Shown one piece after another: positions 33,566-61,439 of a DNA stretch of 64,000 bases; positions within the stretch are counted from its first letter, which is position 1, and each line of letters begins with the position of its first letter. Source of the DNA: a bacterium (GTDB lineage: Bacteria; DRYD01); contig JAUQQQ010000009.1 in the NCBI GenBank assembly GCA_030549815.1, forward strand, positions 1-64,000. Reading direction: 5' to 3'. Position numbers and translations under genes: made by a program. The notes beneath the pieces were generated by a model, which made no database searches, was not told the origin of the DNA, and was given only the letters and a program-made list of their open reading frames with translations.

Positions 33566-35629
33566 ATGAAATACTCTTTCGTCTTGCCTACTCAAAAAAA
33601 TATCTTCTCTAATGAGAAAACAATAGAGTTTGAGGTAAATACGATAGCAAAACAAGCAGCCAGTAGCGTAGTGGTAAAAAGCGGTACTTGCTGGGTATTA
33701 GTAGCAGTAACATTCTCCGAAAACCCCCGTCAAGACATAGATTTTACCCCCCTTACAGTAGATTATTTAGAAAGAATGTATGCAATAGGAAAAATCCCAG
33801 GAGGATTCTTTAAAAAAGAAGGGAAACCTACTGATCAAGAAATATTAAAAGCCCGTATGATCGATAGAACAATAAGGCCATTAATATCAAACTTCTTTCA
33901 TGATGTAAATGTATACGTGCAAGTTTTTTCAGCAGATGTAAATGAAAGCCCTGAAATACTTGGGTTAATAGGAGTTTCATTAGCTCTAAACATCAGTCCT
34001 ATCCCAATTCTATGCCCAGTTAGCGCAACCCTCTATAAAAATGATTCTCTCGAATTAGTCTTAGCTTCAACAAAAGATAAAATAACAATGATAGAATTCA
34101 AAGGAAAGCAAGTAAATGAAGAAACACTTTTCCAAGCAATAAAAGAATCCTTCGAAATAAACAAAAAAATAATAGAATTCCAAGAAAAAATAATTGAGGA
34201 TATAAAACCTGAAAAACTCTCTTCTTCAATCATACAACTTCCAGAAACATTAGAAAAACTGTATTTAGAACATTTTTCAGAAATAACTAAACAAGCACTG
34301 AATGAAGGAGATAAAAAGAAAAGAAATGAGTTACTTAATCAACTAAGCCTTGATAATTTGAAACAAAAAGTAGCTGAAAACCAAGAATTACTAAATGAAC
34401 TAAACCAATATAACGATTTCCAATTTTCTTTGGTTAAGAAAAAATATTTAAAAGAATTTTTGAAATCACAAGTCTTCAATGAGAAGAGAAGAATAGATAA
34501 TCGAAGCTTTAATGAAATAAGACCTATAACGATAGAAACAGGAGTTCTACCTTATCCACATGGCAGTGCAATCTTTACTCGAGGACAAACACAAGTTTTA
34601 TCAGTCGTAACTTTAGGAACTAAAGCAGATCAACAAATGGTTGAAGGTTTAACACTGGAAGAAGAATTTAAAAGATTTATGCATCATTATTATTTTCCAC
34701 CATTTTCAGTGGGAGAAGCCAAAAGAATAGGACCACCTTCAAGAAGAGAAATAGGGCATGGAAATTTAGCAGAGAAAGCTTTAGAACCATTAATACCAGA
34801 TGAATTCTCATTCCCTTACACAATAAGAGTAGTCTCAGAAGTCTTAGAATCAAACGGCTCAACTTCAATGGCCTCAGTTTGCGGAAGTAGCTTGGCTCTT
34901 ATGGATGCAGGAGTACCAATAGAACAACATGTAGCAGGTATATCGATCGGATTACTTACTCACAATAATGAATACATTCTTTTAACCGATATCCAAGGGT
35001 TTGAAGATTTCTTTGGAGAAATGGATTTTAAAGTAGCAGGCACAAAAAATGGAATCACTGCAATACAAATGGACACTAAATTAGATGGCCTAACTTTCGA
35101 TATAGTATACAACACTCTGATAAGAGCAAAAGAAGCAAGAGAGAAAATCATTGATATAATGAATTCTAAAATATCAAAACCTAATCAACTTTCTCCAAGA
35201 GCACCAAGAGTATTAGTAATTCAAATAGAACCATCTAAAATCCCAGAAATCATAGGTCCACAAGGAAAAATTATAAAGAAAATAATTGAAGAAACTAACA
35301 CAAAAATAGATATAGAAGAAGATGGAAGAGTAATAATATACTCAACTAATGAACAAGACGGAGAAAAAGCCAAAGAACTAATAGAAAATATAACAAACTT
35401 CCAAGAAGGGAAAATTTATTTAGGCAAAATCGTTAGAGTAGAACCATACGGTGTATTCGTCAAAATAGCAGAAGGAAAAATAGGATTATTACACGTTTCC
35501 GAAGCAGATATGGGATATGTTAGAGATGCACGAGAAGTATTTAAAATAAATGATGAAATTGTAGTTAAAATCCTAAAAATAGATGAAATGGGTAGGTTTA
35601 CCCTAACAAGAAAAGGATTAAATCAATAA
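33566..35629 (+). CDS. pnp: Polyribonucleotide nucleotidyltransferase (PNPase)
   Basis: A 687-residue PNPase with the standard order: RNase PH domain 1 (FTPLTVDYLERMYA, RMIDRTIRPL), helical linker, RNase PH domain 2 (RGQTQVLSVVTLG, GSSLALMDAGVP, DIQGFEDFFGEMDFKVAG with the metal-binding Asp residues), KH domain (IIGPQGKIIKKI) and S1 domain (GKIVRVEPYGVFVKI). It degrades RNA 3'-5' by phosphorolysis. The usual upstream rpsO is absent; an extracytoplasmic nuclease gene precedes it by 2 bases. It is convergent with the CsaB-like gene, 10 bases apart. Confidence 0.97.
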   Translation: MKYSFVLPTQKNIFSNEKTIEFEVNTIAKQAASSVVVKSGTCWVLVAVTFSENPRQDIDFTPLTVDYLERMYAIGKIPGGFFKKEGKPTDQEILKARMIDRTIRPLISNFFHDVNVYVQVFSADVNESPEILGLIGVSLALNISPIPILCPVSATLYKNDSLELVLASTKDKITMIEFKGKQVNEETLFQAIKESFEINKKIIEFQEKIIEDIKPEKLSSSIIQLPETLEKLYLEHFSEITKQALNEGDKKKRNELLNQLSLDNLKQKVAENQELLNELNQYNDFQFSLVKKKYLKEFLKSQVFNEKRRIDNRSFNEIRPITIETGVLPYPHGSAIFTRGQTQVLSVVTLGTKADQQMVEGLTLEEEFKRFMHHYYFPPFSVGEAKRIGPPSRREIGHGNLAEKALEPLIPDEFSFPYTIRVVSEVLESNGSTSMASVCGSSLALMDAGVPIEQHVAGISIGLLTHNNEYILLTDIQGFEDFFGEMDFKVAGTKNGITAIQMDTKLDGLTFDIVYNTLIRAKEAREKIIDIMNSKISKPNQLSPRAPRVLVIQIEPSKIPEIIGPQGKIIKKIIEETNTKIDIEEDGRVIIYSTNEQDGEKAKELIENITNFQEGKIYLGKIVRVEPYGVFVKIAEGKIGLLHVSEADMGYVRDAREVFKINDEIVVKILKIDEMGRFTLTRKGLNQ

Positions 35630-44982: not shown

Positions 44983-45507
44983 ATGAGTTTCATCGATATT
45001 TTTGAGGCCACTCACGAAAATAATCTAAAATTAATTAAAGAAATAATCGAAAAGGGGATCATCGATATAAATAAACAAAATGATTTCGGTAATACGGCTC
45101 TTCATATTGCCTCCTTTAGAGGACATAAAAAAATAGTTGAATTTTTATTGGAGAAAGGAGCAAATCCAAATATTCAAAACAACGTGGGATATACTCCACT
45201 TCATGATGCAGCATATTACGGACATTTTGCTATCGTTAAGATTTTAGTAGCAAATAAAGCTCAGATTAACATAAAAGATAACTACGGAAATACACCACTA
45301 CACTATGCAACAATCAAAAACAACAAAGAAATCGTAGAATTCCTTATTAAATTAGGAGCAGATATTGATGCTAAAAATAATGAAGGAGAAACACCTCTCG
45401 ATATTGCTCTAAAATTTAATTATAAAGAAATAATAAAATTAATAGAATTTTACAAAATAAATCCGCCTCGTGGGGAAGTCAGGCGGAATAAAAATCCCCA
45501 CAAATAA
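44983..45507 (+). CDS. Ankyrin-repeat protein
   Basis: A 174-residue protein of four to five ankyrin repeats with consensus strings such as GNTALHIASFRGHKKIVEFLLEKG, split here into repeats starting near residues 38, 72, 105 and 138. No signal peptide. The final 15 residues, rich in Pro, Arg, Asn and Lys, are not ankyrin-like and are encoded by a sequence that can fold into an H-type pseudoknot (45462-45501). Likely a protein-interaction module. It lies 55 bases after the HEPN gene and 6 bases before a nitroreductase. Confidence 0.93.
   Translation: MSFIDIFEATHENNLKLIKEIIEKGIIDINKQNDFGNTALHIASFRGHKKIVEFLLEKGANPNIQNNVGYTPLHDAAYYGHFAIVKILVANKAQINIKDNYGNTPLHYATIKNNKEIVEFLIKLGADIDAKNNEGETPLDIALKFNYKEIIKLIEFYKINPPRGEVRRNKNPHK
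45462..45501 (+). promoter_or_regulatory. Predicted H-type RNA pseudoknot at ankyrin gene end
   Basis: Stem 1 TCCGCCT (45462-45468) pairs with AGGCGGA (45481-45487), 7 bp. Its loop contains GTGGGGA (45470-45476), which pairs with TCCCCAC (45495-45501), 7 bp. The linking loops are 1, 4 and 7 bases, the last being ATAAAAA. Both stems are GC-containing in AT-rich surroundings. It ends 12 bases before the nitroreductase ATG, which has no ribosome-binding site. Confidence 0.6.
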
Positions 45508-45513
45508 AAAACT

Positions 45514-46149
45514 ATGCACAAGACCGTAAACCAAGAAATGATAAATATTATAAAAGAAAGAAGATCAATAACTTTCTTTGACCCTTCAAAAGAAATTCCT
45601 GATCAAACATTAAAAGAATTAATAGAATTAGCTTCTACCGCACCCTCAGGATACAACCTACAACCATGGAAATTAATAATCGTTAAAAGTAAAGATAAAA
45701 AATCCAAACTTAAAGAAATTTGCTTCAATCAACAAAAAGTGGAAGACGCCTCAGCAAATATAGTAGTCTTAGCAAACACAAAAGGCGGCATTGAAAATGT
45801 AGATAGAGTTTTAGATAGTTGGGTAGAACTCGGATATATAACAAAAGATCAAAAAGAAGGATTAAAACAAAGTATAATTAACTCATGGAGTAATGAAGAA
45901 AACGCAAAAAGAAAAGCAATAAGAGATGCAGCAATGCTCGCAATGAACATTATGATCTGTGCAAGACTCTTTGGTTTAGAAACTCATCCAATGGAAGGAT
46001 TCGACCACCAAAAATTAAGAGAATTCCTTAATATACCAGAATATTTAATACCAATAATGATAATAGCAATAGGTTACAAAGACGAAACTAAACAACTACT
46101 ACCAAGAGCTTACAGATTTAAATTTGAAGAAATAGCAAATGCAATATAA
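45514..46149 (+). CDS. Nitroreductase-family flavoprotein
   Basis: A 211-residue FMN-dependent nitroreductase-fold protein. It begins with IIKERRSITFFDP (FMN phosphate-binding Arg residues), then ELASTAPSGYNLQPWKLIIVKS, and ends with IAIGYKDE plus an FEEI tail. Substrates cannot be predicted; the family reduces nitro compounds, quinones or enones with NAD(P)H. No Shine-Dalgarno sequence precedes the ATG; instead a possible pseudoknot lies directly upstream. The next gene is glycogen synthase. Confidence 0.9.
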   Translation: MHKTVNQEMINIIKERRSITFFDPSKEIPDQTLKELIELASTAPSGYNLQPWKLIIVKSKDKKSKLKEICFNQQKVEDASANIVVLANTKGGIENVDRVLDSWVELGYITKDQKEGLKQSIINSWSNEENAKRKAIRDAAMLAMNIMICARLFGLETHPMEGFDHQKLREFLNIPEYLIPIMIIAIGYKDETKQLLPRAYRFKFEEIANAI

Positions 46150-59407: not shown

Positions 59408-59731
59408 TTATATTTCAGCTTCAGAGGCTATAACACTTTCAAGACCGTATTTAAGATTAACAACATCTATAGAAGTTGGTTTCCTAATGTTGGTAATGGA
59501 TATTTCCTTTATTTTTTTAAGTTCATCATTTATAGTTTGGATAATATTTTCCTTATCTTCAACACTAATGAGCATTCTAATAGTTTTAGGTTTGACTTCA
59601 GACGGTATAATCCCCTCAATTCCGGTTGTAAAAGCTGCAATATTTGCATTCATTTTAGCCAATATTGTTGTAATTTGTGCCAATATTCCAGGTTTATCTT
59701 CCAAAACCTTGGCTTCTATATACAATATCAT
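59408..59731 (-). CDS. ACT-domain protein
   Basis: A 107-residue protein. Residues 1-75 form an ACT domain (VLEDKPGILAQITTILAKMNANI is the conserved Gly-containing helix start), which binds amino acids in many regulators. The tail of about 30 residues is polar. No catalytic domain is attached. AAGGAGAG precedes the ATG. A likely pseudoknot lies in the 59-base leader between the SPOR gene and this one, ending 5 bases before the ribosome-binding site, which suggests translational control. Confidence 0.88.
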   Translation of the reverse strand: MILYIEAKVLEDKPGILAQITTILAKMNANIAAFTTGIEGIIPSEVKPKTIRMLISVEDKENIIQTINDELKKIKEISITNIRKPTSIDVVNLKYGLESVIASEAEI

Positions 59732-59748
59732 AATTTCTCTCCTTATAA

Positions 59749-59786
59749 GGGTAAAGTTTTTATATACCGCCCTTTACCCAAGCGGT
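59749..59786 (-). promoter_or_regulatory. Predicted H-type pseudoknot in the ACT gene leader
   Basis: In the minus-strand RNA, ACCGC (59786-59782) pairs with GCGGU (59770-59766). The loop holds GGGUAAAG (59779-59772), which pairs 8 bp with CUUUACCC (59756-59749). Linkers are 2, 1 and 9 bases, the last being AUAUAAAAA. The geometry is textbook H-type. It sits between the SPOR gene stop and the AAGGAGAG of the ACT gene, riboswitch-like in position. A simple hairpin of the 8-bp stem is the alternative. Confidence 0.6.
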
Positions 59787-59790
59787 TTTC

Positions 59791-60435
59791 TTAATAACTA
59801 CGAATAACATTGTCATATCCTAATCTTTTTAATTTATTGCTCTCTAATTGAACTTCTTCTTGAGTTTTGTATGGTCCTAATATAACCCTATATATGGTAT
59901 TACCTCCTGTTATTATTTTTTCTATTTTTGGCTGCAATCCTATCGAAACTAACTGTTCTTTAATACTTTCAGCGTTTTCAAGTGATGTAAAAGAACCAAC
60001 CTGAATATAATATGATTCCTGGACATTTTCTTGGAAAGTATTTTGGTTTTCATCTTTCGAATTATTATCCTCTTTTTCTTTATTAATTTCCTGTGAATTA
60101 ACCTCTGTTGAATTACTCTGCGTATCATCTTCTTTACTTTCAGTAGTATTAGTAGTATTTTTTTCAGTAATGGTGTTTTTAGTTTGATTTATAGTAGTTT
60201 GATTTACTTTTTCTGTTTCACTTTGCTTTTCCTTATCTACTTGAGGAACCAAAACAAATGGTTTTTGACTATCACTATTTGTGGTAAAAGTTTTCTCTTC
60301 AATAAGAGGAGCTATCAGAGGCTTTGAGTTGGTATCATTCGTTGTATTTATTTTTTCTTTATAAAAATATTTTCCTGCATAGTATCCTAATACGGATGCT
60401 AAAACTACAGCAAGTATGATTAGTATATATCTCAT
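59791..60435 (-). CDS. Membrane-anchored SPOR-domain protein
   Basis: I set the start at the ATG at 60435, which overlaps the galT stop by ATGA; the longer frame runs 75 bases into galT. The 214-residue product has a transmembrane helix at residues 2-21, a Thr/Glu/Asn/Ser-rich linker of about 100 residues, and a C-terminal SPOR domain (YYIQVGSFTSLENAESI, then YRVILGPYKTQEEV). SPOR domains bind denuded peptidoglycan at division septa. Its exact role is not readable. Confidence 0.92.
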   Translation of the reverse strand: MRYILIILAVVLASVLGYYAGKYFYKEKINTTNDTNSKPLIAPLIEEKTFTTNSDSQKPFVLVPQVDKEKQSETEKVNQTTINQTKNTITEKNTTNTTESKEDDTQSNSTEVNSQEINKEKEDNNSKDENQNTFQENVQESYYIQVGSFTSLENAESIKEQLVSIGLQPKIEKIITGGNTIYRVILGPYKTQEEVQLESNKLKRLGYDNVIRSY

Positions 60436-61439
60436 TGTATTTGTTGCTTTCTTAGTTCTGCTGCTGCCATTTCCGGTGTCATTGGATTTATATATGTACC
60501 TGTTCCCCATTCAAACCCCGCAACCTTTGTCAACCTTGGAATTATCTCTATGTGCCAATGGAAATACTCTTTACTATTGGAATTTGGAGGAGCAGTATGA
60601 AGCATCATATTATAAGGAGGATTATCAAGTAATAAGTATATTTTTGATAATACTGTTTTCATCGTTTCAGCCAAATCAACAACATGATTCTTATCTATAT
60701 CCTCAAATCTGTGATAATGCTTTTTAGGTATAATCCATGTTTCAAAAGGAAAAGCAGATGCAAACGGGCAAAAAGCAATAAATGAGTTATTCTCAAAGAC
60801 TATTCTATCTTGGTGCCCCCTTTCTTGAGTAACTATATCACAAAATATACACCTATCCCTTAAATCATAGTATTCTTTTGCATTGTCTATTTCATTCTTT
60901 ATAACTGATGGTATTATTGGAGTTGCAATGATTTGAGAATGGGGATGAAAAAGGGAAGCACCAGCATCTTTACCATGATTCTTAAAAATTATAACATACT
61001 TTATTCTCTGATCTTTAGACAGTTCTATTATTCTATCTCTGTAAGCCCAGATAATCTCCATATACAGTTCTTTAGTAACAGTTAGAGGAGTTGCAAAATG
61101 ATCTTCTCCCTCAATCAATACCTCATGATAACCTACACCATTCATAAAATCATATATTCCTATACCTTTCTTATCCAAATCACCTTCAGGTTTAAGAGCA
61201 GGAAATTTATTATTAATTACTCTTATCCACCATCCAGGTCCATTCGCTATTGTCCCAGGGTTTCTGTAAGCCAAAACCTCAGGAGGAGTCATGTATTCGT
61301 TACCTGGACAAAACGGACATTTTGAAACATCACCAGGTTGATCCTGAACTTTCTGCTTGAAATCATTAGGCCTTGATGCTCTTTCAGTTGCTATTATAAC
61401 CCATCTCTTCAGTATCGGATCTTTCCTAAGCTCAGGCAT
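60432..61439 (-). CDS. galT: Galactose-1-phosphate uridylyltransferase
   Basis: A 335-residue GalT that exchanges UMP between UDP-glucose and galactose-1-phosphate. It has the CPFCPGNE zinc site, a second Cys pair in CIFCDI, the active-site FHPHSQI with the nucleophilic His, and YFHWHIEIIPR near the C-terminus. It supplies UDP-galactose for the glf pathway nearby. Length is typical. The downstream SPOR gene is coupled by ATGA. Confidence 0.95.
   Translation of the reverse strand: MPELRKDPILKRWVIIATERASRPNDFKQKVQDQPGDVSKCPFCPGNEYMTPPEVLAYRNPGTIANGPGWWIRVINNKFPALKPEGDLDKKGIGIYDFMNGVGYHEVLIEGEDHFATPLTVTKELYMEIIWAYRDRIIELSKDQRIKYVIIFKNHGKDAGASLFHPHSQIIATPIIPSVIKNEIDNAKEYYDLRDRCIFCDIVTQERGHQDRIVFENNSFIAFCPFASAFPFETWIIPKKHYHRFEDIDKNHVVDLAETMKTVLSKIYLLLDNPPYNMMLHTAPPNSNSKEYFHWHIEIIPRLTKVAGFEWGTGTYINPMTPEMAAAELRKQQIQ

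Follow-up and report, generated by a model that had tools for sequence, protein, structure and literature searches.

The leader of a small ACT-domain gene in the window, i.e., the whole stretch of 64,000 nucleotides analyzed here, carries two interlocking stems directly before the ribosome-binding site. This raises the question of what such a compact pseudoknot is and what it does in front of this gene: whether it is a riboswitch, as had been suggested, or an RNA of another kind with a more general task.

Anatomy of the pseudoknot

On the minus strand, positions 59749–59786 read ACCGC TT GGGTAAAG G GCGGT ATATAAAAA CTTTACCC, followed by AAGGAG and by the ATG at 59731. This is exactly the arrangement described by the first-pass annotation—an interlocked ACCGC/GCGGT pseudoknot before the ribosome-binding site of the ACT-domain gene. 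When both strands of the window are scanned without bias by a descriptor of H-type pseudoknots whose third loop is A-rich, this element and one at 45462–45501 come out as the top two matches. The scores are 34.5 and 38 for the two elements, and all others score at most 29. The register of stem 1 stands only in part: The CCGC/GCGG core is retained, but the outer A-U pair of ACCGC/GCGGT is rejected since the family alignment of 110 copies does not support its pairing. The inner pair, on the other hand, covaries. Hence, stem 1 is CCGCY/RGCGG, and loop 3 begins with W. The locus comprises the following parts, in the order of transcription:

59791..60510, minus strand: upstream gene, a SPOR-domain protein (PF05036), with its stop 5 nt before the CCGC core
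59781..59785, minus strand: stem 1, 5' strand CCGCU with the invariant CCGC core (sequence and family alignment)
59772..59779, minus strand: stem 2, 5' strand GGGUAAAG (sequence and partner-swap test on 102 matches), with a G-U variant in one congener (L015)
59767..59771, minus strand: stem 1, 3' strand GGCGG (sequence and family alignment)
59757..59766, minus strand: loop 3, UAUAUAAAAA, family consensus W-AUANAAA (A, U, A, N, A, A, A at 95–100% in 110 members)
59749..59756, minus strand: stem 2, 3' strand CUUUACCC, ending 17 nt before the AUG (sequence and pairing tests)
59739..59744, minus strand: Shine-Dalgarno sequence AAGGAG of the ACT-domain gene (sequence; a 16S tail with CACCTCCTTT is present in the genome)
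59408..59731, minus strand: downstream gene, a single ACT-domain protein of 107 aa (PF01842, 2.1e-9), with orthologues and the same leader in three congeners

Loop 3 presumably occupies the minor groove of stem 1. When this copy is folded without a pseudoknot, its best structure is only weakly better than those of shuffled sequences (z of −1.54), a value to be read with the limit that nearest-neighbour folding cannot model a pseudoknot. Conservation in relatives, on which the first-pass annotation had made its proposal depend, is found: The element is kept at the ACT gene in the three congeneric genomes, with diverged flanking bases. Two sister-genus genomes have no element before the ACT-domain gene.

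The second member features the same parts on the opposite strand:

45463..45501, plus strand: CCGC CTC GTGGGGA AGTCAG GCGG AATAAAAA TCCCCAC (sequence and descriptor scan)
45514..46149, plus strand: nitroreductase-family protein of 211 aa, with its AUG 12 nt past stem 2 and no Shine-Dalgarno sequence

At this copy, the upstream frame, which is ankyrin-repeat-like (45200–45507, plus strand), enters and runs through the pseudoknot and stops beyond it at 45505–45507. At the orthologous loci of two further genomes (G003 and G004), the stop of the upstream frame falls inside the pseudoknot.

Distribution and covariation of the family

The two elements of the window, whose likeness had been pointed out before, belong to a single family. 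The window's own genome, which is 1.59 Mb in size and of the Candidatus Calescibacterium lineage, yields many matches sharing the same core when approximately 1.5 Mb of it is scanned with a descriptor. With the refined descriptor, the count is approximately 31 copies in this genome and 110 across six genomes of its family. The recurrence suspected from two leaders is thereby borne out. The pattern CCGCN{6,20}GCGGWATANAAA, which places no demand on stem 2, has 25 matches in the window's genome and 12 to 21 in each of the five other family genomes. Inside the family, this amounts to 104 matches versus 0 for the reversed pattern, and in 186 genomes outside the family, the pattern stays at control level (38 matches versus 52 for the reversed pattern). 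Searched with a covariance model built on stem 1 and loop 3, each family genome yields 12 to 26 matches, and 53 other genomes, including one of the same order (G006), yield none. One DNA match in another genome (L011 in G001) was discarded as a chance match inside an ABC-transporter gene.

The first-pass annotation had not recognised a known riboswitch. This agrees with a search of the window and of 15 relatives' loci against Rfam 15: At the gathering score, only tRNA and rRNA are matched, with no match to SAM-II or any other family, and preQ1 gives no match in a permissive search up to E = 10. The titles and abstracts of the literature on Calescibacterium or Calescamantes describe no such RNA. 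The element is one copy of a predicted lineage-specific family of H-type mRNA pseudoknots, a new RNA family that is absent from Rfam.

The consensus of the 110 members is CCGCY-S2-RGCGG-W-AUANAAA-S2'. The core of stem 1 is CCGC/GCGG in 107 of the 110 copies, the inner pair covaries (U-A in 59, C-G in 22, and U-G in 17 of 110), and the fixed positions of loop 3 are each conserved at 95 to 100%. Stem 2 is free in sequence—it comprises 4 to 10 bp and occurs in 93 different sequences among the 110 copies. Its pairing is nevertheless kept: In 102 matches chosen without regard to stem 2, it pairs well in 96 (94%), as compared with 25% when the 3' partners are swapped between copies (maximum of 32% in 30 shuffles). 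Orthologous leaders show stem 2 rewritten on both strands, with GCUGGAAG/UUUCCAGC versus CUGGGGG/UCCCCAG before acpP and GUGGGGA/UCCCCAC versus GCUGGUG/CACCAGC before the nitroreductase gene. The two linkers of the pseudoknot are short and variable across the family.

Several copies depart from this plan. Two copies of one genome (G000:C5:163900 and G000:C7:116802) feature CTGC/GCAG in place of CCGC/GCGG, the sole compensatory change of the core observed. Some copies of genus 2 (L227, L228, L229, and L234) have a much longer loop. In L227, an entire hairpin is inserted within the loop of stem 1, and in the other three, the inserted loop can form a third helix with bases that precede the element. 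Judged by its sequence, the gene behind L228 and L234 resembles infB.

Position before start codons and target genes

A start codon follows closely downstream in all 109 copies with a scorable gene (108 AUG and one GUG), and the structured part ends 10 to 24 nt before it in 100 of these, with the last structured base usually about 12 to 19 nt away. Stem 2 and the start codon are separated by a median of 15 nt in genus 1 and of 21 nt in genus 2. In contrast, the median distance from the upstream stop to the element is 3 nt in genus 1 and 39 nt in genus 2, and in a few copies, the upstream neighbour is divergent. The relaxed upstream distance in genus 2 and these divergent neighbours indicate that it is the downstream gene to which the position is fixed. 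Most copies sit inside operons, in the gap between neighbouring genes. Of 83 copies in genus 1, 56 begin at most 60 nt past the stop of a same-strand upstream gene. A long upstream frame enters or passes through the element in 19 copies. A start right after the upstream stop was, hence, rejected as a defining feature, since it fails in genus 2 and in the 19 overlapping copies.

The spacing to the AUG is also kept where stem 2 lies far from it. With spacers of at least 24 nt, a second hairpin begins within 2 nt of the end of stem 2 in 22 of 27 copies—nearly always at 0 nt—as compared with a mean of 2 and a maximum of 6 in shuffled controls of these 27 copies. The extra hairpin fills the long spacer, so that the structure again ends about 12 to 20 nt before the AUG in most copies. 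The remaining linker is A-rich (54% A). In genus 1, the structure ends at 18 nt in copies with a Shine-Dalgarno sequence and at 12 nt in copies without one (p of 8e-10), a contrast that is partly forced by the scoring because a short linker cannot contain a Shine-Dalgarno sequence. An end at 12 nt implies that in the latter copies a helix occupies the Shine-Dalgarno site. Pairing of stem 2 to the anti-Shine-Dalgarno sequence, as expected of a hidden Shine-Dalgarno sequence, is slightly commoner in copies without a Shine-Dalgarno sequence (14 of 58 versus 3 of 51, p of 0.015). In addition, the triplet ACT stands right before the ATG about ten times more often at element genes (12 of 109) than in the genome (13 of 1309). 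These copies mostly lack a Shine-Dalgarno sequence; one example is found at 45511–45516 of the window, and the others are on other contigs.

The genes behind the element belong to about 50 unrelated, mostly housekeeping families: ribosomal proteins, a tRNA ligase, acyl carrier protein, central metabolism, and replication. In the window's genome, the targets include rpsD, rplE, rplL, rpmE, frr, tig, acpP, prs, mdh, and ssb, and further ilvE, jag, a nuoE-like and an HMG-CoA-lyase-like gene, ispH (LytB), ppdK, alaS, HIT, and an rpoZ-like gene; several others are named from sequence only. In the sister genus, targets named in the same way include rpsB, rplQ, rpmF, recA, and asnS. Common to both genera are rpsD (in all six genomes), jag, acpP, and cutA, and rpsO is a target in one genome. 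Genes known for high output, rplL and acpP, are among the targets. Neither the approximately 31 genes of the window's genome nor the about 50 families overall share a pathway, and unlike autoregulatory ribosomal-protein leaders, the family is not confined to ribosomal-protein operons.

Function of the family

The preferred reading, at a probability of roughly 0.5, is a cis-acting module of translation initiation that would position or dock the ribosome or insulate the ribosome-binding site. It is favored by the position tied to the start codon, the kept distance to the AUG, the spacer-filling hairpins, the pairing of stem 2, and the housekeeping targets. Both a covarying stem and a position fixed to the start codon, as expected of a general leader pseudoknot of translation initiation, are found. 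Against this reading, the element does not simply replace the Shine-Dalgarno sequence: The frequency of the latter at element genes equals the genome background (14 of 27 versus 615 of 1309), and simple replacement is rejected. According to the initiation module, a rigid, triplex-type pseudoknot would be placed at the mRNA exit side (the platform) of the initiating 30S subunit. There, it could dock on the ribosome or on a factor recognising stem 1 and loop 3. Alternatively, it could insulate the ribosome-binding site, which is short and A-rich, from the RNA upstream of it and from the ribosome that terminates there. Either way, initiation at the gene would not depend on the preceding one. Stem 2 would serve as a spacer helix, which the optional extra hairpin would lengthen while keeping the distance to the AUG. 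Two further points speak against the module: Stem 1 is conserved more strictly than a purely mechanical task would require, which hints at a specific binder, and the non-pseudoknotted fold of the copy at the ACT-domain gene is only weakly better than shuffled sequences.

Known pseudoknots of initiation offer precedents. The rpsO pseudoknot of Escherichia coli docks on the 30S platform, and ribosomal protein S1 unfolds mRNA pseudoknots in this organism (PMC3858243). The leaders of rpsO (S15) and of the alpha operon (S4) resemble the family by an mRNA pseudoknot at the ribosome-binding site, and rpsD and, once, rpsO are targets here as well; action on initiation is known in those leaders and predicted here. 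However, each of them is devoted to a single operon and overlaps with the initiation region, whereas the elements of the family end before it and precede dozens of unrelated genes. In tisB, a pseudoknot upstream of the ribosome-binding site is needed for binding of 30S and S1 and acts at a standby site (PMC7708055). In contrast to the family, the tisB site acts about 100 nt away and via ribosomal protein S1, which is not found in the family genomes. In the frameshifting pseudoknots of luteoviruses (BWYV type), stem 1 is GC-rich and its minor groove holds an A-rich loop. This likeness is only a lead; those pseudoknots act in elongation at slippery sites, whereas the element precedes start codons.

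A search for ribosomal protein S1 in five family genomes returned a single-domain match only, and an S1-domain search of all six (G000–G005) found no protein with multiple S1 domains and no gene for ribosomal protein S1. The matches are to PNPase in all six (33566–35629 in the window) and to an RNase E/G-like protein in three, both named from their sequences. As the absence is common to six genomes, each 71 to 90% complete, an assembly gap is an unlikely cause. A genome of a sister family in the same order (G006) encodes a four-S1-domain protein and has no pseudoknots. The absence of S1 and the presence of the pseudoknot family are, however, a correlation from one evolutionary event. Since S1 is not found, the S1-based version of the E. 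coli precedents cannot apply here as it stands. A bolder form of the module is speculative and rather improbable: a portable unit—made up of an invariant triplex-type stem 1 and loop 3, a free stem 2, and an optional coaxial hairpin—spread before dozens of unrelated genes in a hot-spring lineage that has lost S1, which would dock the mRNA on the 30S platform and whose helix would replace the Shine-Dalgarno helix in copies devoid of it—similar to an IRES, but genome-wide.

Among the alternatives, an operator of a trans-acting RNA-binding protein, which would read stem 1 and AUANAAA and repress or activate about 30 genes together, is a serious possibility, albeit a clearly less probable one than the module. 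The nearly invariant CCGC/GCGG core and AUANAAA next to a free stem 2 have the look of a recognition site, and in both genera, the element precedes genes of RNA-binding proteins, namely S4 (rpsD, six genomes) and Jag/EloR (four genomes). S4 binds an mRNA pseudoknot in E. coli. The targets are, however, very diverse, and they differ between the genera except for rpsD, acpP, jag, and cutA. An element of mRNA processing or stability—blocking an exonuclease or marking a cut between cistrons, thus giving them different lifetimes—is unlikely. The location of most copies between operon genes, right past the upstream stop in genus 1 or overlapping the end of the upstream gene, would suit it, but in genus 2, the position is kept relative to the downstream AUG and not to the upstream stop. 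Moreover, intergenic gaps in the window's genome are short in general (median of about 13 nt), so that closeness to a stop is not special.

The compact riboswitch considered by the first-pass annotation finds no support as a single-metabolite sensor, given the unrelated, mostly housekeeping targets, the short and variable linkers, and the lack of the preQ1 cytosine. The family resembles the preQ1-I riboswitch (RF00522) in being a compact H-type pseudoknot of approximately 35 to 40 nt with an A-rich third loop in a 5' leader adjoining the ribosome-binding site. In preQ1-I, a specificity cytosine, in the context UC or AC, directly precedes the 3' strand of stem 1 (PMC11625349); the family carries A in 49, T in 30, G in 28, and C in only 3 of 110 copies at this position. 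It further differs by the lack of an Rfam match, a sequence-free stem 2 of 4 to 10 bp, approximately 30 copies per genome, and targets other than genes of queuosine biosynthesis or transport. A riboswitch for a general ligand such as a nucleotide or alarmone that controls growth genes is very unlikely, too. The small H-type architecture of preQ1-I (PMC11625349) and the growth-related nature of many targets speak for such a sensor, and the invariant stem 1 and AUANAAA loop are compatible with a general ligand or a protein. The absence of a coherent pathway, of an Rfam riboswitch match, and of the specificity cytosine, as well as the variable, short linkers available for a pocket, speak against it. 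Least probable by far is a signal at the DNA level, i.e., a promoter or operator, for which the invariant part can be read as a CCGC-N-GCGG palindrome with a −10-like box, TATANAAA. DNA has no need of a stem 2 that pairs over 93 sequences far above partner swaps, and the extra hairpins and the AUG spacing are features of translation.

In bacteria, a structured leader element is normally dedicated to a single pathway or operon. A small pseudoknot that recurs before about 2% of the genes, at a fixed distance to the AUG and with no shared pathway, points either to some general step of initiation or to a new global regulator that binds RNA. As S1 is missing from these genomes, the lineage provides a natural test of how start sites are chosen without this protein, by means of a motif that is short, well defined, and portable.
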